Of a stretch of 34,367 bases of DNA, positions 25,629 through 34,367 are shown one piece after another. Position numbers and translations under genes: made by a program. The notes under the pieces were generated by a model. That model did not search any database and was not told the DNA's origin. It saw only the letters and a list, made by a program, of their open reading frames with translations. The stretch is from Thermotogaceae bacterium (GTDB lineage: Bacteria > Thermotogota > Thermotogae > Thermotogales > Thermotogaceae): NCBI GenBank assembly GCA_015489065.1, contig WGAO01000102.1, positions 1-34,367 of the forward strand, written 5' to 3'. Position 1 is the stretch's first letter. Every line of letters starts with the position of its first letter.

Positions 25629-26207
25629 ATGCCAGCAAAGTACCTGGAGATAAGATGGCATGGAAGAGCCGGACAAGGTGCAAAGAGCGCCGCTCAAATG
25701 CTTGCTGAAAGCGCACTGGAAAAAGGAAAATTTGTACAAGCTTTTCCAGAATATGGTGCTGAAAGAACAGGAGCTCCTATGAAAGCTTACAACAGAATTG
25801 GTGATGAACCAATTCTGGTCAGAGCTGTCATAGAAAATCCGGACATAGTCATAGTTGTAGACGACACACTTCTCTCTCCACAGCTTATCAGTGGGCTTGA
25901 TGAAAAAGACGGAATACTCCTCGTTAACACAGTAAGAGATTTCTCATGGATCAGAAGTAGAACGAATTTCAAAGGAAAAATCTGCAAAGTCCCAGCCACT
26001 GACATAGCTCTCGAAGAGATTGGAAAAGGCGTTCCAAATACCGTTATGCTTGGAGCTCTTGTAAAGATAACCGGCGTTGTCCCACTCGAAGCAATAGAGA
26101 GCAGAATCGAGAAACTCTTCTTAAGCAAATTCGGAGAGGAGATCGTTGAAAAGAACAAGAAAGCTTTGAGACGCGGATTCGAAGAGGTTGAATGTGAGGA
26201 GGTGTAA
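25629..26207 (+). CDS. porC: Pyruvate:ferredoxin oxidoreductase, gamma subunit
   Basis: Subunit of the heterotetrameric enzyme that oxidises pyruvate and CoA to acetyl-CoA and CO2 with reduction of ferredoxin. The 192 residues carry the gamma-family text EIRWHGRAGQGAKSAAQML near the N-terminus, FPEYGAERTGAPMKAYNRI and PNTVMLGALVKITGVV near the C-terminal third. Length equals the T. maritima PorC as I remember it. A strong AAGGAGGTGA site lies seven bases before the ATG. It is first in the operon, followed two bases later by porD. Specificity for pyruvate rather than another 2-oxoacid rests on the four-gene order and similarity, and is likely but not proven. Confidence 0.95.
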   Translation: MPAKYLEIRWHGRAGQGAKSAAQMLAESALEKGKFVQAFPEYGAERTGAPMKAYNRIGDEPILVRAVIENPDIVIVVDDTLLSPQLISGLDEKDGILLVNTVRDFSWIRSRTNFKGKICKVPATDIALEEIGKGVPNTVMLGALVKITGVVPLEAIESRIEKLFLSKFGEEIVEKNKKALRRGFEEVECEEV

Positions 26208-26209
26208 AA

Positions 26210-26512
26210 ATGCTTAAGGGCTGGAAAGACATACCCATCGGGGGAATAATAGATGAGCCCGGAAAATCGAGAGAGTACAAGACCGGAACCTGGAGAGTTC
26301 TCAGACCGATCCTTCATGAAGACAAGTGCGTTCACTGTATGTTTTGTTGGCTTTACTGCCCGGACATGGCAATCGTAATAGATTCGAGCGGACAGAAACC
26401 TAAAATGGTTGGTTTCAACTACGATTACTGTAAGGGATGCGGCCTTTGTGCAGATGTATGTCCAACTAAAGCCATAGAAATGAGACCAGAGACGGAATTT
26501 ATCGAAGAGTGA
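26210..26512 (+). CDS. porD: Pyruvate:ferredoxin oxidoreductase, delta subunit (2x[4Fe-4S] ferredoxin)
   Basis: A small ferredoxin-like subunit of 100 residues that carries electrons from the beta-subunit cluster towards free ferredoxin. Two complete cluster motifs are visible: CVHCMFCWLYCPD (CX2CX2CX3CP) and CKGCGLCADVCPTKAI. The N-terminal 40 residues include GWKDIPIGGII and the TGTWRVLRP segment usual for the delta chain. GGAGGTG precedes the ATG by five bases. It is embedded in porC-porD-porA-porB, with two bases to porC and 13 to porA. Confidence 0.95.
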   Translation: MLKGWKDIPIGGIIDEPGKSREYKTGTWRVLRPILHEDKCVHCMFCWLYCPDMAIVIDSSGQKPKMVGFNYDYCKGCGLCADVCPTKAIEMRPETEFIEE

Positions 26513-26525
26513 GGAGGTGATCCGA

Positions 26526-27710
26526 ATGTACAATATAGATCTTAAGAAAGCAAAAGCCATGACTGGTGCAGAAGCTGTGGCAAATGCTATGCGCCAGATA
26601 GAACCTCATGTTGTAGCGGCCTATCCAATAACCCCACAGACTCCAATAGTCGAATATTTTGCTAAATTTGTGGCTGATGGTGTGGTCAGGACTGAAATGA
26701 TACCAGTCGAATCTGAACACAGCGCAATGAGTGCAGTCGTGGGTGCAGCAGCAGCTGGCGCAAGGGCAATGACTGCGACGAGTGCAAATGGGCTTGCACT
26801 TATGCACGAAGTCGTCTACATTGCTGCATCCTCAAGACTTCCAATAGTGATGCCAGTTGTTAACAGAGCTCTATCAGGACCTATAAACATCCACTGTGAT
26901 CATTCAGACGCAATGGCTGAGAGGGATTCCGGTTGGGTACAGTTTTTCGCAGAGAGCAATCAAGAGGCATACGATCTCACTATATTGGCTTTAAAGCTGG
27001 CAGAAAACGAGAACGTTAGACTTCCAGTAATGGTTAACTTGGATGGGTTCATCCTTTCACACGGCGTAGAACCGGTTGAACTTCTCCCAGACGAGGTAGT
27101 AAAGGAATTCGTAGGAGAACCGAATGTCATGTATCCACTTCTTGACACAGAAAAACCGGTTACCTATGGACCTTTAGATCTTTATGACTACTACTTCGAA
27201 CACAAAAGACAGCAGGTAGAAGCCATGGAAAATGTTAAAAAGGTCTTCCCGAAAGTAGCGGAAGAATTCCAGAAAATAAGCGGAAGAAAGTACGACTTCG
27301 TTGAGCCTTATAAACTGGAAGATGCTGAGTATGTGATGGTGGCTCTAGGTTCAACGAACAGCACTATAAAGTATGTCGTTGACTGGATGAGAGAAGAGGG
27401 CTTTAAAGTCGGTGCTCTCAAAATCTGGATGTTCAGACCATTTCCAAAGTTCCAAGTTCAGCAATACTTGAATGGAAGAAAAGGCGTCATAGTGCTTGAT
27501 AGATCCGCTTCCTTTGGAGCAGAGGCACCACTTTACGAAGCAGTTAAGTCCGCGCTCTACAATGTCACGATACGTCCACAAATGGGATCTTATGTTTACG
27601 GACTCGGAGGAAGAGATATTCTTCCAGAGCATATTAGAAGCGCTTTCGAGGACGCCATCAGTGGAAACCTCATAGTTGATGAGCAACGCTATCTAGGACT
27701 CAGAGAGTGA
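26526..27710 (+). CDS. porA: Pyruvate:ferredoxin oxidoreductase, alpha subunit
   Basis: Alpha chain of 394 residues with the pyrimidine-binding part of the thiamine diphosphate site. The family text is clear: MTGAEAVANAMRQIEPHVVAAYPITPQTPIVE, then VPVESEHSAMSAVVGAAAAGARAMTATSANGLALM in parts, RLPIVMPVVNRALSGPINIHCDHSD, and the C-terminal VLDRSASFGAEAPLYEAV with YGLGGRD. ATG 26526 is chosen because GGAGGTG ends eight bases upstream; an in-frame GTG at 26517 lies within that ribosome site and is rejected. Followed 13 bases later by porB. Confidence 0.95.
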   Translation: MYNIDLKKAKAMTGAEAVANAMRQIEPHVVAAYPITPQTPIVEYFAKFVADGVVRTEMIPVESEHSAMSAVVGAAAAGARAMTATSANGLALMHEVVYIAASSRLPIVMPVVNRALSGPINIHCDHSDAMAERDSGWVQFFAESNQEAYDLTILALKLAENENVRLPVMVNLDGFILSHGVEPVELLPDEVVKEFVGEPNVMYPLLDTEKPVTYGPLDLYDYYFEHKRQQVEAMENVKKVFPKVAEEFQKISGRKYDFVEPYKLEDAEYVMVALGSTNSTIKYVVDWMREEGFKVGALKIWMFRPFPKFQVQQYLNGRKGVIVLDRSASFGAEAPLYEAVKSALYNVTIRPQMGSYVYGLGGRDILPEHIRSAFEDAISGNLIVDEQRYLGLRE

Positions 27711-27723
27711 AGGGGGGATACAA

Positions 27724-28704
27724 ATGCCAGTTAATCTTTTCGATTTAGCAAAAACTTTTGAGACAAGAGCAGAAGATGTAGGCTTGGTACAAGGTCACAG
27801 ACTCTGCCCAGGATGCGCAGCACCTATAGTCGTGAAATTCTCTCTTATGGTTGCAAGGAAACTCGGATATGAACCCGTTGTAGCACTAGCTACGGGATGT
27901 CTTGAAGTTTCAACAACAATTTATCCATACACCGCTTGGACAGTTCCATACATACATAACGCTTTTGAGAACTCCGCAGCCACTATGAGCGGCGTTGAAA
28001 CGGCTGCTAAAGCTCTCAAAAAATTTGGAAAGATTCCACAAGATAAGAAATACGCGTTCTTTGTCTTTGCAGGGGATGGAGGAACATATGACATAGGTCT
28101 TCAGTCGCTCTCAGGTATGATAGAGAGGGGACACAAGGTCATCTATGTTCTATACGATAATGAAGGTTACATGAACACAGGAAATCAGAGATCTGGATCC
28201 ACTCCAACGGGATCGAATACAACGACAGCACCGGTTGGTAAGGTCATACCCGGAAAAGTCCAATTGAAAAAGAACATCGTCGAGATAGTTGCTGGACACG
28301 AATATGTCTATGCCGCTACCGCTTCAATAAGTGATCCAAACGACTTCTTCGCTAAGATAGAAAAGGCTTTGAATTTTGATGGTCCCTCATTTATAGCGGC
28401 GTTCTCACCCTGTGTCAGATTTTGGAGGGTTCCAGATAGCGCTGCAAATTCCATATCAAAGCTCGCAGTTGAGACAAAATACTGGCCGCTTTACGAAGTC
28501 GACAGAGGAGTTTACAAAGTAACGCGAAAGCCAAGGCAATTCAAACCTCTCATAGAATTTCTCAAACCACAAGGCAGGTTCAAACCGCTCTTGTCAAGAC
28601 CAGATGCCGAAGAAATAATCAATGAACTTCAGGAATATGTCGACAGGCGCTGGGAAAGGCTTCTGATTCTTGAAGAAGCTACCAAAGGGAAATACATAAG
28701 GTGA
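27724..28704 (+). CDS. porB: Pyruvate:ferredoxin oxidoreductase, beta subunit
   Basis: Beta chain of 326 residues that binds thiamine diphosphate and the proximal [4Fe-4S] cluster. The cluster cysteines are in LCPGCAAP (two), ATGCLEV and FSPCVRFWR. The cofactor motif runs from GDGGTYDIGLQSL to LYDNEGYMNTG, with the Gly-Asp-Gly and Asn residues for the metal-diphosphate. GSTPTGSNTTTAPVGK and the C-terminal PLYEVDRGVYKV also match the family. A GGGGG-type ribosome site precedes the ATG, and a strong terminator follows the stop by two bases, ending the operon. Confidence 0.95.
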   Translation: MPVNLFDLAKTFETRAEDVGLVQGHRLCPGCAAPIVVKFSLMVARKLGYEPVVALATGCLEVSTTIYPYTAWTVPYIHNAFENSAATMSGVETAAKALKKFGKIPQDKKYAFFVFAGDGGTYDIGLQSLSGMIERGHKVIYVLYDNEGYMNTGNQRSGSTPTGSNTTTAPVGKVIPGKVQLKKNIVEIVAGHEYVYAATASISDPNDFFAKIEKALNFDGPSFIAAFSPCVRFWRVPDSAANSISKLAVETKYWPLYEVDRGVYKVTRKPRQFKPLIEFLKPQGRFKPLLSRPDAEEIINELQEYVDRRWERLLILEEATKGKYIR

Positions 28705-28749: not shown

Positions 28750-29265
28750 ATGAGAAAAACGGGAACGCTGCTGTTGATAATATCTTCCTTGCTCTTTGCT
28801 GGAAAAATCTGGTTTGATTTTTCCACCCCTCTTTCTGCTTACATTCAAAGCACCATTAAAAATGAAGATGGACTTGGTGTATCCATTGGAGTGAAAATCT
28901 GGAAAATACCACAGTTTGAGCTCACATATATGAGAATCGGAAATGATCATTACATTCTTTTAAAACCTCTCATGCTTGAGGGAGAAATCTCAAGCATGTA
29001 TTCGAAACAGTTCAAGATGCAGGCTCTTCTCAATCTTGGAATTGACGGTTCTTACCCGGATTACAGCTCAAGTGCATATTTAACTACAGGAATTGAAATG
29101 TCCTATGAAACGGCGGGAAATCAAGGGGTATTCTTCAAGCTGTGCCTTGAATCAGGAATTCGTTTGGAACTCTTACAGGGAATAAATAAATTCAGTCCGT
29201 ACTACATACAGCTGATCGGACCGATCGTTATAAAACCTTCTATGATAATAGGAGGAAAATTTTAA
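28750..29265 (+). CDS. Small exported protein, possible outer-envelope beta-barrel
   Basis: I do not recognise the family. The 171-residue protein begins with a signal peptide (MRKTGTLLLIISSLLFAGK). The mature part consists of amphipathic beta-strand-like segments (GVSIGVKIWKIPQFELTYMRIG, MQALLNLGIDGSY, SSAYLTTGIEMSYE, VFFKLCLESGIRLELL) and ends in GGKF, a terminal Phe as in many outer-membrane proteins. Thermotogota have an outer toga, so a small barrel is a reasonable inference. A GAGGAGGGG site lies six bases before the ATG. It starts 18 bases after the por terminator, so expression probably comes from readthrough. It converges on the PCMT gene with a four-base overlap. Confidence 0.72.
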   Translation: MRKTGTLLLIISSLLFAGKIWFDFSTPLSAYIQSTIKNEDGLGVSIGVKIWKIPQFELTYMRIGNDHYILLKPLMLEGEISSMYSKQFKMQALLNLGIDGSYPDYSSSAYLTTGIEMSYETAGNQGVFFKLCLESGIRLELLQGINKFSPYYIQLIGPIVIKPSMIIGGKF

Positions 29266-30218
29266 AAAATTCTCTCAACCCAAAAATCAGTTCTTTTGGA
29301 ATTGAATGCAAACTTAGAAGATATCAAATCCGGGAAGTTCTCTTTTTCCAATGACTTTACTGCTCTTTTCAATCTCAGACACTCTTTGCACATCAACCAC
29401 TCACCATTTCTGTGAACGGCAGAACAATCTTCATCCACAAAGAAGTATTCTGTTCCGATCTTCCCAACAGACGCCGTTAAGACTTCAAGAACAGGCATAG
29501 AGATCGATAACATACTTATCTTTTTAAGGTAATACTCACAAGTTTGAAAACTTTTTAAAAGCCTCTCATTGAGATTTCCAAGCATTCCAGAAGCTTTTAT
29601 AAAATTAGTTGCTGACTTGTAGATTCCCGCAAGAAAATCTCCGTTTTTTTTGAAGAGAATCGCAGGTTGGTAATAGGAAATGCTCTTTAGATTCATAGGA
29701 GCTATTATCTTTCCACCATCAGAAAGCTGATCAATCCAATACTTTGGTATCTCATCAACGCCAACTGTTGCAAATATCACATCATAAGGCGCAAGATCAG
29801 CATATCCATAGTATCCATCGCCCACGACAAACAAAACATTTTCTATAGATAGCTTTCTCAAATTTTCCTTTGCTAAACTGCAGAGCTTTTCCTCATATTC
29901 AATCGATACGATCAATCCTTCTTCGCCAACGACCTTCGACATCACGGCAGCGTTGTAACCAGTTCCTCCACCTATTTCAAGTACTTTCATACCTTTTCTA
30001 AGCCCAACATCCCTCATAAACTCAGCCATCAAAGACGGCTGACTAGATGTGCTGTAAAAGTTCTCACCTTTGTAGCTTAAGAGCGCACTATCCGAGTATG
30101 CATCCTTAGATTCCACTTCGATGAATTCTTCCCTCGGAATTTCTCCAAAAGCTTTTGCGATCTCCTCAGGGTATCCCAATCTTCTGATCATTTCATAGAG
30201 CTTTCTTGGTGATGACAT
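29262..30218 (-). CDS. pcm: Protein-L-isoaspartate O-methyltransferase, long Thermotoga type
   Basis: SAM-dependent repair enzyme that methylates L-isoaspartyl residues in damaged proteins. The N-terminal two thirds are the PCMT core: IPREEFIEVESKDAYSDSAL, STSSQPSLMAEFM (substrate loop), VLEIGGGTGYNAAVMSKVVG (SAM motif I), IEYEEKLC and VGDGYYGYADLAPYDVIFATVGV. Residues beyond about 215 form the extra C-terminal domain that I recall from the 317-residue T. maritima enzyme; here the length is 318. A CX2C pair (MCKECLR) in that domain is worth noting. ATG 30218 is chosen with GGAAGGG eight bases upstream; it overlaps the clamp-like gene by 26 bases. A longer start at 30266 lacks support. Confidence 0.93.
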   Translation of the reverse strand: MSSPRKLYEMIRRLGYPEEIAKAFGEIPREEFIEVESKDAYSDSALLSYKGENFYSTSSQPSLMAEFMRDVGLRKGMKVLEIGGGTGYNAAVMSKVVGEEGLIVSIEYEEKLCSLAKENLRKLSIENVLFVVGDGYYGYADLAPYDVIFATVGVDEIPKYWIDQLSDGGKIIAPMNLKSISYYQPAILFKKNGDFLAGIYKSATNFIKASGMLGNLNERLLKSFQTCEYYLKKISMLSISMPVLEVLTASVGKIGTEYFFVDEDCSAVHRNGEWLMCKECLRLKRAVKSLEKENFPDLISSKFAFNSKRTDFWVERIF

Positions 30219-31164
30219 ACCTTTTTCCCTTCCCATCCACAAATCTAACGACTCCTCCGCCCACATCTACCCAAACGCTACTCATACCTGAAAGATATGA
30301 GCTGAATTTCCTCACAGGAACTCTTATCCTGAATTCTAGGTCCAAATCAATACTATCGCTCATTGCAATCATCATTTCTCCTCGACTACCAGTAATGGTG
30401 ATCTTTCCAGATTTTATTGAAATTTCAGTCTCGAAATTTCCAAGGAGACTGGCACTTTTCTTGACGATTTTTCGAAATTTTTCATCTAACTTCCTTGCGT
30501 TAGAGATTCTCGGAAGAGCTATGTGCTCTTCCATCACTTCTCCACAGATTGATCCTTCCATTACAGCCGATCTAAATCCAAGCGACTTACCACCGAAAAT
30601 CTCCCAATCTCTTAACTTTTGAGCAGCTTTTGAAAATCTCCGCACAGATTGATATGGCATCGAGAAAGAAAAGCGTCTGCCGCTACCATTAAAAACATAG
30701 AAAACAGACAGATTGGAAGTTATCGCATGAGCCACTGAAATTTTCCCAAAATGGACTTCCACCATCTCTTCTTCGCTCATTGGCTTGCTTATATAATCAA
30801 GTCCCTGGACATAGTCATGAATTTCTCCCACCCTTTCACCAAATGGCACTTTTCCCACTTTCTTTCTGTATTTTTTGAAAACGGCGTTGAGTTCGCCACA
30901 TCTTATAAGTATTTCACCGTTATGACATATCTCAAAGTCTTCTTCGCAAAATCTTAAGATTGAATACACAAGATTGATTGGAAAAGAGACATCTGGGAGA
31001 TCGGCGTCTATTTTGATGGAAAAGACAAGGCACCCATCCCAAGCTGATATTTCGTTAGAATGAAGATCCACAAACTGAAATATCTCATCCGACCTTCCTA
31101 TCACTCTTTTGAGGATCTGGAGCTTTCTCAAAAAATCCCTGCTATCTATTTTGATGCATGACAT
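30193..31164 (-). CDS. Divergent sliding-clamp-like (DnaN-fold) protein
   Basis: Protein of 323 residues without a motif I can name, but the architecture looks like a bacterial beta clamp. The N-terminal part reads DSRDFLRKLQILKRVIG, then DLHSNEISAWDGCLVFSIKID, as in clamp domain 1. The last 80 residues read ETEISIKSGKITITGSRGEM, FRIRVPVRKFSSYLSGM, VWVDVGGGVVRFVDGKGKRY, ITKKAL, which parallels domain 3 of DnaN (EISVEDGKL..., F..KYLLDAL, V.L......LI......Y.Y...P). Length is below the usual 365. It is too divergent to be the replicative clamp. Its ATG overlaps the LysM gene by 23 bases, and it overlaps PCMT. The fold is an inference from pattern; the function is unknown. Confidence 0.6.
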   Translation of the reverse strand: MSCIKIDSRDFLRKLQILKRVIGRSDEIFQFVDLHSNEISAWDGCLVFSIKIDADLPDVSFPINLVYSILRFCEEDFEICHNGEILIRCGELNAVFKKYRKKVGKVPFGERVGEIHDYVQGLDYISKPMSEEEMVEVHFGKISVAHAITSNLSVFYVFNGSGRRFSFSMPYQSVRRFSKAAQKLRDWEIFGGKSLGFRSAVMEGSICGEVMEEHIALPRISNARKLDEKFRKIVKKSASLLGNFETEISIKSGKITITGSRGEMMIAMSDSIDLDLEFRIRVPVRKFSSYLSGMSSVWVDVGGGVVRFVDGKGKRYVITKKAL

Positions 31165-32593
31165 AAACCGTCACATCCTTTTTCCAGAGCTTGATCGCCA
31201 AGAGCATGTCTCCAACATAGATATCTATCTTGTTTTGCTTTATAGCACTTCCTACATCTTCTACATGGAAAACTCCTCCGCCTGGCATTCTTGAGAGCTG
31301 TGGAATATATATGTAACTTCCAAGAGGTATGACTTTCGGATCAGATGCAACTGTCCACCATTCTCTAACCAAATTTCCCGATCTTGTCACCCTAAATGAT
31401 GCTTGCTCTGGAAGGATCCCGTCTTCCCATTCGGTATAAAAAGTAGCTGAGAATTCTCCGAGTTTATCAAATATGTATTTGAAAGGATCTCGTGGTTCGT
31501 TATTTATAAGCAGTGCAAAATCAAGATATCCATGACATTCCCCTATGATCTGACCGCTTCTCACCCAGTTTCCCTCTTTCACTTTTGCTTTACCACTGAA
31601 TTTATAAGAGGTGTAAACTTCATTACCGTGATACAGCCTTATGTAGCCGTCTCTGACTTCTTCAACTCTTCCTGGCATTACCGCTCTGAAAATCCCATCT
31701 ACCTTAAACCTTATCCAACCACTTTCATCCATTCCTTTCACGACATCTCCCTTTTTCAAACTCCCAACAGGTAGTGTTATCACATCTTTTAGAGAAACAG
31801 GTATTTTCAGCTTGTCTCCAACCATTAATTTTCTTGGATCAGCTATGTTATTCATCTCGAGAATATCTTTTACAGAAACTCCAAAGGCTTTGGCTATATT
31901 CAAAATTGTATCTCCTCTCTTTACGATCAATATCACAAAAGGAGCAACAATGGGATCTTTACCGCCTACATCAATCATCCTAAAGAGTGAGCTCATCTCT
32001 CTTTTGAGTTCTCTAATCTTTTCATCAACAGAAGCTATTCTCTTATCTTCGAGGTATTTCAGCCTTTTTTCCAAATCCAGTGAAAGCAACTTCAAACTGT
32101 CTATCTCTGACGAATTGGATTTAACATCACTCTTTAGAGAATCAATGGAGCTTTTCAAATCAAAAATATTTACCTGAAGACCTTCAAATTTCTCATCTAA
32201 ACTGTTTATGTAATTCTTTAATCCATTTAGAGATATCTCATTGCTGTATTCTTTGTCTCTCATATCCTTCAAGCTGGCGCTTAAATCCTCTATATCATCT
32301 TTGATATTTCGTATTTCTTTTTCAAGATTTGAAATTTTCAATCCAAGAAGATTGAAGCTCTTTGAACTCTCATAAGATAAGTAATTCAGGCTACCTTCAA
32401 GTGTTTCGTAGTTCTTTGTTAATTTTGAATATTCTTTTTGAATTTCAAGAAGCCTTTTTGAATTCTCTCTGGAAATCTTCTCAATAGAATCAATTTTCCC
32501 AGACACCTGGGATGTTGAGAAAATAAGAAAAGCTATAGACATCAAAACTATGCCAAGAATGCCCCAGTATATCAGTCCCTCACTTCCTGCCAT
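31142..32593 (-). CDS. Membrane-anchored coiled-coil protein with LysM, degenerate M23 and 3D domains
   Basis: Cell-wall protein of 483 residues. An N-terminal helix (about 8-28) anchors it; residues about 30-215 form a long coiled coil (LEGSLNYLSYESSK, IRELKREMSSL). A LysM domain follows (about 222-266, VKRGDTILNIAKAFGV...MNNI). Residues about 285-375 resemble a LytM/M23 endopeptidase (IRLYHGNEVYTSY, VKEGNWVRSGQIIGE, DFALLINNEPRDP), but the HLH metal ligands are replaced by YLD (near 355) and the YXHLS histidine is lost. The C-terminus (about 400-483) is a 3D domain: SDPKVIPLGSYIYIP, HVEDVGSAIK, KIDIYVGD with conserved Asp residues, related to MltA-type transglycosylases. A role in division or wall remodelling is inferred. 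It overlaps DUF2225 upstream by 22 bases. Confidence 0.85.
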   Translation of the reverse strand: MAGSEGLIYWGILGIVLMSIAFLIFSTSQVSGKIDSIEKISRENSKRLLEIQKEYSKLTKNYETLEGSLNYLSYESSKSFNLLGLKISNLEKEIRNIKDDIEDLSASLKDMRDKEYSNEISLNGLKNYINSLDEKFEGLQVNIFDLKSSIDSLKSDVKSNSSEIDSLKLLSLDLEKRLKYLEDKRIASVDEKIRELKREMSSLFRMIDVGGKDPIVAPFVILIVKRGDTILNIAKAFGVSVKDILEMNNIADPRKLMVGDKLKIPVSLKDVITLPVGSLKKGDVVKGMDESGWIRFKVDGIFRAVMPGRVEEVRDGYIRLYHGNEVYTSYKFSGKAKVKEGNWVRSGQIIGECHGYLDFALLINNEPRDPFKYIFDKLGEFSATFYTEWEDGILPEQASFRVTRSGNLVREWWTVASDPKVIPLGSYIYIPQLSRMPGGGVFHVEDVGSAIKQNKIDIYVGDMLLAIKLWKKDVTVYVMHQNR

Positions 32594-33234
32594 CTCTCTT
32601 GAGCCGCCTTTATGTAAGGTGATGGGACTCCTCTGTATTTATTCACCAGCATCGAAAACCATTTAACCGCTTCTTTTCTGTTTCCGAGGAGTTTGTTGAG
32701 TTCACCCAGATAAAACAGTATCATCGGCTCTTCCTTTTCACTTGTTATCTCCTCTTTGAAGTGTTTTTCGAAGAACTTTAAAGATTTTGCGAGTGCTATT
32801 TTTTCCTCCTTTTCCAAACCTTTTTCTCTATAGAGCCATGCGAGCTTTAAATATGCCTCAGCTGCTCCCCTGCTGTGTTCCATTACGGTATAGACGGCTG
32901 CAGCAATCGAGAAAAGCTTTATTGCATCATCTAAACTCCTTTCCTCACCAAGATTCAAACTGCCAAATTCCTTTTTTGCATTTTCGAGGACTTTTTTCAC
33001 TTTGTCCAGCTTATCTTCGGGAATTTCAAGTGTGCCGAAATCTCTTTCAAACAATGTGAGATAACACTTGGGACATGATATTACCTGATAATACAGAGCG
33101 TTAACACCTTTGAAATTCGGTTTGAGATCTTCATCTCTGGATTCTACTATTATCGCATCCGAGAAAACTCTCGGATAGCTAAAATCATTTCCGCAAAGTT
33201 GGCACACAAACTCCTTATACCAAAACGATGGCAT
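32572..33234 (-). CDS. DUF2225 family protein (zinc-binding N-terminus plus helical repeats)
   Basis: A 220-residue cytoplasmic protein. The N-terminal 60 residues hold two CX2C pairs, FVCQLCGNDF and ISCPKCYLTLF, a probable structural zinc site. Residues about 105-215 are TPR-like helices with AAEAYLKLAWLYREKG and YLGELNKLLGNRKEAVKWFSML. This combination matches DUF2225, a family of unknown function common in Firmicutes and Thermotogota. GGAGGTG lies five bases before the ATG. It lies 24 bases after ftsY on the same strand and overlaps the wall-protein gene, so it is in the ftsY operon. Confidence 0.85.
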   Translation of the reverse strand: MPSFWYKEFVCQLCGNDFSYPRVFSDAIIVESRDEDLKPNFKGVNALYYQVISCPKCYLTLFERDFGTLEIPEDKLDKVKKVLENAKKEFGSLNLGEERSLDDAIKLFSIAAAVYTVMEHSRGAAEAYLKLAWLYREKGLEKEEKIALAKSLKFFEKHFKEEITSEKEEPMILFYLGELNKLLGNRKEAVKWFSMLVNKYRGVPSPYIKAAQERWQEVRD

Positions 33235-33258: not shown

Positions 33259-34146
33259 TCACTCTGCAAAGAGCGCCTCCACGAATTCCTCAGCATTGAA
33301 TTGTCTGAAGTCCTCTTCTTTTTCTCCAACTCCTATGAACTTTATAGGTATTCCCAGCTCCTTTGCTATTGCTATCACTATTCCACCCTTGGCAGTTCCA
33401 TCGAGCTTTGTTATAACTATTCCCGTTACATCGACTATATCTTTGAATATCTTTGCCTGAACGAGTCCGTTTTGTCCAGTTGTCGCATCTAAAACAAGTA
33501 GAACTTCATGTGGAGCGCCTTTTATCTCTTTATTAACTACTCTGTGTATTTTTCTTAGTTCTTCCATTAAATTCTTTTTGTTGTGGAGCCTTCCGGCTGT
33601 GTCTATTATCACGACATCTTTTCCTCGCGCTTTTGCATGTTTTACAGCATCAAAGGCTACCGCTGCTGGATCCGACCCTTCTTGATGTGATATCACAGTA
33701 GCCCCTACCTTCTCCCCCCAAAACTTAAGCTGTTCTATTGCAGCAGCTCTAAAAGTATCCGCCGCCGCTAAGACCACGCTTTTTCCATCACCTATGAATA
33801 TTCTTGCCAGCTTCGCGCATGTGGTGGTTTTCCCTGATCCATTTACCCCGACAACGCTTATAACGCTTGGCGGAATCTCTGGCAAATTGAGATCTGTCTT
33901 GAAATTCAGAATTTCAAGTATCTTCTCCTTTAAAAATCCTAGAGGATCGTCGGGCTTTTCTCTTCTCAAATCTTCTAGGAGTTCCAAGGTTGTTTCCACT
34001 CCAACATCTGCAGATATCAAAATTTCTTCCAATTCCTCTAAAGTTTCTTCATCGACTTTTCCTCTTTTCAAAATTGATACAACTTTTCCAAAGAAGCCCT
34101 TTCTTGTTTTTTGGAGTCCTTTTTTCAGAGCATTAAAAAATCCCAT
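33259..34146 (-). CDS. ftsY: Signal recognition particle receptor FtsY
   Basis: SRP-receptor GTPase that docks ribosome-SRP complexes at the membrane. The 295 residues are close to T. maritima FtsY and lack the long acidic A domain of E. coli. The N helical domain (KTRKGFFGKVVSIL, LEELEEILISADVG) is followed by the GTPase domain: P-loop GVNGSGKT (100-107), DTFRAAAIEQLKFW, DTAGR, TKLDGTAKGG and the closing GVGEKEEDFRQFNAEEF. ATG 34146 is chosen because GGAGGAAGG lies just upstream; a longer in-frame ATG at 34215 would add 23 unrelated residues. A weak TAGAAT -10-like box lies at 34184-34179. It heads the five-gene minus operon. Confidence 0.96.
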   Translation of the reverse strand: MGFFNALKKGLQKTRKGFFGKVVSILKRGKVDEETLEELEEILISADVGVETTLELLEDLRREKPDDPLGFLKEKILEILNFKTDLNLPEIPPSVISVVGVNGSGKTTTCAKLARIFIGDGKSVVLAAADTFRAAAIEQLKFWGEKVGATVISHQEGSDPAAVAFDAVKHAKARGKDVVIIDTAGRLHNKKNLMEELRKIHRVVNKEIKGAPHEVLLVLDATTGQNGLVQAKIFKDIVDVTGIVITKLDGTAKGGIVIAIAKELGIPIKFIGVGEKEEDFRQFNAEEFVEALFAE

Positions 34147-34367
34147 ATCCTTCCTCCTTCCAGAAAGTTTGCTTTTGTATTCTACACTTTGATTCGTTCG
34201 AAGTGGAAGCTTCAAAATTGCAAGGGCAAAAAGTTGAATTCACTATCGATTTTGTATAGAAGCAGAATGCGTTTTATCAGCTGGTGATTTTTCAGAAGAT
34301 GTGGTTTTTAGGTAGCAAAGTGAGAAAGTGAAAGCCAATTTAGATAGTTGTTACTACTACTTATTTC
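34147..34367. other. Upstream region of ftsY, no gene seen
   Basis: This 221-base stretch holds the ftsY ribosome site and a weak minus-strand -10-like TAGAAT (34184-34179). Beyond 34216 it is AT-rich with stops in all frames that I followed, and I see no tRNA, strong hairpin or repeat. The adjacent gene on the right must lie outside the window. Confidence 0.5.

Follow-up and report, generated by a model that had tools for sequence, protein, structure and literature searches.

The locus at positions 30193–31164 encodes a protein of 323 residues, and raises the question of whether a bacterium that already carries the replicative clamp DnaN might possess another one. The preliminary description took the protein for a possible divergent, undescribed sliding-clamp paralogue that is not the replicative clamp, having read in its start and end the strand and helix rhythm of DnaN domains 1 and 3, and placed it among wall, targeting and repair genes with an overlap with PCMT. 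The window, i.e. the whole stretch of 34,367 nucleotides from a Thermotogaceae bacterium, contains the following genes around it:

29262..30218 (longest ORF from 30266), minus strand: protein-L-isoaspartate O-methyltransferase (PCMT), downstream neighbour; PF01135, E 8.3e-56
30193..31164, minus strand: divergent DnaN/β-clamp paralogue of 323 aa with three clamp domains, D1 (residues ~1–107), D2 (~108–213) and D3 (~214–323); by ORF, AlphaFold2, Foldseek and hhalign
31142..32593, minus strand: cell-wall protein with coiled-coil, LysM, M23-like and 3D domains, upstream neighbour; LysM E 6.6e-14, 3D E 1.8e-12
32572..33234, minus strand: DUF2225 protein, same operon; PF09986, E 3.6e-37
33259..34215, minus strand: FtsY, same operon; TIGR00064, 342 bits, above cut-off

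Family searches resolved this minus-strand run as ftsY–DUF2225–LysM/3D–paralogue–pcm, in agreement with the setting described earlier. The ORF consists of 323 uninterrupted codons, and overlaps the upstream LysM/3D gene by 23 nt (31142–31164) and the PCMT gene by 26 nt from its likely start, an ATG at 30218 preceded by an AGG-type ribosome-binding site, or by 74 nt from the longest ORF. We consider it a real gene, because its homologues keep the reading frame across a phylum. On the plus strand, 28750–29265 encodes a 171-aa protein with a signal-like N-terminus, located between the convergent pcm and a run (25629–28704) that resembles pyruvate-ferredoxin oxidoreductase subunits; the closest genome has a counterpart of this gene at the same place (L003:3407–3916).

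Clamp fold and domain order

Searched as a single sequence, the 323-aa protein had no match exceeding the thresholds of Pfam, NCBIfam and PHROGs, or among the sequences of the PDB. In contrast, a profile from an alignment of 17 family members (A1) had β sliding clamps as its top four PDB matches (E 4.5e-4, 0.021, 0.026 and 0.06), the sole further match having an E of 1.4. Aligned by hhalign against 30 Thermotogota DnaN, the family reached P 97.9%, E 4.9e-13 and a score of 98.1 over 314 columns, compared to scores of at most 18.7 for 29 controls (reversed DnaN, five column shuffles and 23 unrelated families). A broader family profile reaches full-length Thermotogota DnaN at 1e-18. The DNA_pol3_beta Pfam models do not match the 323-aa protein and give three PF00712 matches among the 17 members; the relative L015 clears the PF00712 cut-off with 26.1 bits, though via its third domain.

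The AlphaFold2 model of the monomer (pLDDT 91.0, pTM 0.87) has three repeated clamp domains, each composed of two βαβββ units as assigned by DSSP. Structural similarity search using Foldseek demonstrated that all 50 PDB matches listed are DnaN, with a best E of 6.5e-17, TM-scores of 0.73–0.79 and RMSDs of 4–5.5 Å; phage clamps were matched in the viral structure library. A distant relative of 16% identity adopts the same architecture of three domains with two βαβββ units each (pLDDT 94.3), and its 50 listed PDB matches are likewise all DnaN, including the T. maritima clamp (PDB 1VPK), at E 4e-20. The DnaN-like rhythm is thus real and spans all three domains rather than 1 and 3 alone, and these searches gave no clear match to another family.

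Domain-wise hhalign yielded 95.7% for F1–D1, 45.8% for F2–D2 and 91.1% for F3–D3, and across registers 93.7% for F1–D2, 1.2% for F2–D3 and 53.3% for F3–D1. A circular permutation of DnaN (D2–D3–D1), an idea that came from the DGC motif described below and from the one relative whose third domain matches the N-terminal Pfam model, is rejected by the F2–D3 value, by F3–D1 falling below F3–D3, and by F1–D1 exceeding F1–D2. The paralogue has the three-domain clamp fold, and its domains are homologous to those of DnaN in co-linear order.

Distribution, descent and gene context

The same genome carries a separate, canonical dnaN (G000:C83), and the paralogue is therefore not the replicative clamp. 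Together with the profile match and the predicted fold, this bears out the earlier proposal of a divergent sliding-clamp paralogue beside a normal dnaN. DnaN exceeds the Pfam cut-off in 99 of 103 Thermotogota genomes. Two of the genomes surveyed each contain a pair of matches to the DnaN C-terminal domain that exceed the cut-off (G039:C3:62171 and C23:20517; G060:C1:1818708 and C1:806411), possibly second canonical-type dnaN copies besides the paralogue. Moreover, a 502-aa frame in G058 (C55:31053–31460), longer than any DnaN and perhaps from a mobile element, has a DnaN C-terminal match over the cut-off (E 9.7e-9), and frames of ~510–543 aa in genus g31 (G073, G074, G077, G080 and G081; e.g. 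G074:C1:1145364–1145639) show sub-threshold DnaN C-terminal matches at E 0.006–0.02.

A single-protein search of 61 related genomes found 19 matches, and the A1 search found the paralogue in 98 of the 103 Thermotogota genomes, nearly always as a single copy. When a wider alignment of 47 members (A2) was run over 390 genomes, the strong matches were confined to Thermotogota; the weak ones outside the phylum mostly resembled ordinary DnaN in length and score, the best being a 379-aa frame at E 4.5e-11. The gene is absent from five genomes, namely the pairs that represent genus g3 and family f7, plus G030, in which a relaxed search turned up their DnaN alone. It is split into two frames in G022 (L017:456–1472 and 1420–2001) and G089 (C9:270749–271671), whether through a frameshift, a stop codon or an error in sequencing; the polC of G089 is likewise in pieces.

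The sequences fit vertical inheritance within Thermotogota, because a tree of 54 members groups them by family with the minimum possible changes, except for family f1, which is split in two. Mean between-family identity is 21.6%, compared to 43.6% for DnaN over the same genome pairs. A phage origin was rejected, since tblastn against 50,697 phage records found no match. In Thermotoga maritima MSB8, whose IspD matches PDB 1VPA along its entire length, the gene (L062:6393–7442) lies between the hsp33/ispD genes and alaS, and we take it to be TM1395. Our literature search, which covered papers outside subscription, found none on a clamp paralogue of Thermotoga or Thermotogota or on TM1395 in Thermotoga, in keeping with an undescribed protein; a "DNA clamp superfamily" label may already exist in databases such as InterPro.

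In families f11 and f9, the paralogue lies directly downstream of polC, which is itself preceded by ruvC; the gap between polC and the paralogue is –11 to +11 nt at the ten loci read. This adjacency occurs in 16 of 17 genomes of f11 and 14 of 21 of f9 (30/38 together); the seven f9 exceptions all belong to one genus, and the f11 one is a fragment of the gene that lies on another contig. The identity of PolC is certain (NF001688, 1732 bits). The linkage is absent from the window's own family and the remaining ones, where the neighbours are alaS (in the T. maritima group), ddl, ispG, tsaD, a GTPase or the ftsY/pcm run, several of these names outside f9 and f11 resting on sequence recognition only. 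A functional tie to ftsY/pcm was rejected, as that order is confined to genera g1 and g2, and ruvC–polC is the only tight linkage seen in more than one family. The ftsY–pcm setting is a local accident, because the neighbours differ elsewhere in the phylum and polC adjoins the gene in two families.

The PolC tails that could be read keep a Q-x-x-L-F-type motif with or without the paralogue in the genome, and the idea that the tail tracks the presence of the paralogue was accordingly rejected. Since the motif is kept either way, the C-terminal QxxLF tail of PolC probably still binds ordinary DnaN; this, together with the families in which polC is not adjacent, makes the link between PolC and the paralogue non-obligatory. 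Besides full-length PolC, many f9 genomes have a second PolC-like frame of ~900–1025 aa (e.g. G086:C2:267282–269729, G096:C1:1984984–1987356 and G060:C1:1829520–1831880), scoring 830–970 bits against TIGR01405, below cut-off, over about model positions 380–1175 of 1211.

Residues lost, kept and newly conserved

In DnaN, the partner pocket comprises R152, L155, T172, G174–L177, P242, R246, V247, N320, Y323, V344, V360 and M362–R365, with H175 and M362 bridging its two subsites, and the dimer interface contains the hydrophobic residues I78, F106, I272 and L273 (PMC11139829). The linear equivalents of the pocket, including TDGHRL and MPMRL, are not conserved in the paralogue, whose C-terminus is RYVITKKAL-like in place of the IMPIRIV of DnaN and lacks MPIR. 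Judged from these equivalents, the alignment shows the canonical QLxLF-binding pocket to have been lost. By contrast, the counterparts of I78 (position 69), F106 (94) and L273 (240) are hydrophobic in 54, at least 52 and 46 of 54 members, respectively, whereas that of I272 is variable, gapped and poorly aligned. The six bore helices carry a net charge of +8.3 per protomer, compared to +4.1 in DnaN, and the paralogue as a whole is basic (pI 8.3) whereas Thermotogota DnaN is acidic (pI 4.8).

The most conserved residues of the paralogue are G23, E26, D43, G44, C45, D123, E131, P170, Y171, R175, H/R176, K179 and C207, several of which fall within three segments:

31027..31038, minus strand: codons of D43-G44-C45-L46, the D1 loop motif [AG][TS]DGCL; D43 96%, G44 89%, C45 94% (n = 54)
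30628..30657, minus strand: codons of P170-Y171-x-S-x-R175-R176-x-x-K179, the second D2 helix, which is a basic bore helix and the most conserved stretch
30544..30546, minus strand: codon of C207 at the end of the last D2 strand; C in 52/54 members

R175 and K179 are invariant, and position 176 is H or R in all 54 members. The F1–D2 profile alignment superimposes D43-G44-C45 onto D173-G174-H175 in domain 2 of DnaN (SDGFR / TDGHR). By secondary-structure position, C207 corresponds to M362 of DnaN domain 3, and P170 and S173 to N320 and Y323, each one domain earlier; this F2–D3 part of the mapping is manual and was made after the conservation had been seen, so that the low p value obtained for it by random sampling does not count as a test. 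Altogether, the most conserved residues (DGC45, PY-S-R-H-K and C207) sit at the D1/D2 junction, where a displacement by one domain would put the D2/D3 pocket of DnaN. Both C45 and C207 are cysteine in 51 of 54 members; of the three members that lack C45, two have lost C207 as well. This pattern, with few changes behind it, suggests that the two are in contact.

Possible roles and comparison with known clamps

We favour the reading, with a probability of roughly 0.6, that this gene product represents a divergent second sliding clamp, a DnaN paralogue inherited vertically in Thermotogota that acts as an accessory or repair ring at or near the PolC replisome. It would be loaded onto DNA and close into a ring around it, most likely as a homodimer. 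Partners might dock at a new site where D1 meets D2, formed by the loop G23-x-x-E26, the loop DGC45, the helix P170-Y171-x-S-x-R175 and C207; this putative site would be the D2/D3 position of DnaN moved by one domain, and a C45–C207 contact may make it more rigid or sensitive to redox state. If PolC stays on DnaN via its QxxLF tail, the task of the second clamp would lie with different clients or at a different step. Against this reading, the far greater divergence compared to DnaN (21.6% versus 43.6%) could mean relaxed constraints, the polC linkage is missing in the window's own family and others, and five genomes, including both members of two genera, do without the gene. Doubtful, and to be held only tentatively, is the more specific proposal that Thermotogota replicate or repair DNA with two clamps, the second of which gave up the QLxLF pocket and moved its site to D1/D2, with a Cys–Cys pair replacing His175/Met362 and a new binding code coupled to PolC.

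The best rival, which we nevertheless regard as unlikely, is a mixed ring of one paralogue and one ordinary DnaN protomer, offering one canonical pocket and one new site in the manner of heteromeric PCNA rings. The D1 interface positions equivalent to I78 and F106 have stayed hydrophobic, nearly all genomes carry both proteins, and the opposite charges of the two (pI 8.3 and 4.8) could favour mixed pairs; however, nothing indicates unequal faces in Thermotogota DnaN. Strong divergence, loss of the canonical pocket and dispensability in a few lineages would also suit a clamp that has degenerated and lost the ability to encircle DNA, but binds it as an open arc or has a regulatory role, e.g. by titrating the clamp loader or DnaN. 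Yet the three domains are complete, as are the six bore helices with their conserved basic residues, the hydrophobic interface positions are retained, and a regulator needing D1/D2 alone would be expected to lose D3, so that we rate this reading somewhat below the mixed ring. That the fold has been re-used outside DNA metabolism, e.g. in envelope or protein-repair work, is suggested by the operon with ftsY, DUF2225, LysM/3D and pcm in the window's genus group; this seems highly improbable, given that such a neighbourhood occurs in g1 and g2 only, that the sole tight linkage across families is to ruvC–polC, and that the bore helices are more basic than those of DnaN.

To our knowledge, the general view is that in bacteria a single DnaN with a single pocket handles all clamp traffic. 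If the second-clamp reading is true, a phylum-wide and ancient clamp without the QLxLF pocket, linked to polC, would mean that work at the fork is divided differently in a phylum that includes the model hyperthermophile Thermotoga maritima. The paralogue is small, should be thermostable, and can be expressed for structure determination and binding assays.

Compared to DnaN (T. maritima TM0262, PDB 1VPK; E. coli β), the paralogue shares the three-domain fold, the domain order and profile homology over 314 columns, and has hydrophobic equivalents of most interface residues as well as basic bore helices. However, identity in structural matches is only 9–14%, Pfam and NCBIfam do not recognise it, and it lacks the TDGHRL loop of D2, the FPDYRRV linker and the MPMRL C-terminus. 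It also differs in being basic, in its conserved DGC/C207 cluster at D1/D2, and in not being the replicative clamp of its genome. The divergent β clamps of phages (BFVD matches, e.g. A0A6J7X9H3 and A0A7G5BAQ6) have a similar length and are structurally just as similar (E ~1e-14, TM-score up to 0.82); with about 8–16% identity to the paralogue, they are no closer to it than cellular DnaN. PCNA and the 9-1-1 complex (Rad9–Hus1–Rad1) provide an analogy only, that of a specialised second clamp beside the replicative one: these eukaryotic and archaeal clamps are trimers of two-domain protomers, whereas the paralogue is a three-domain protomer of the DnaN type.
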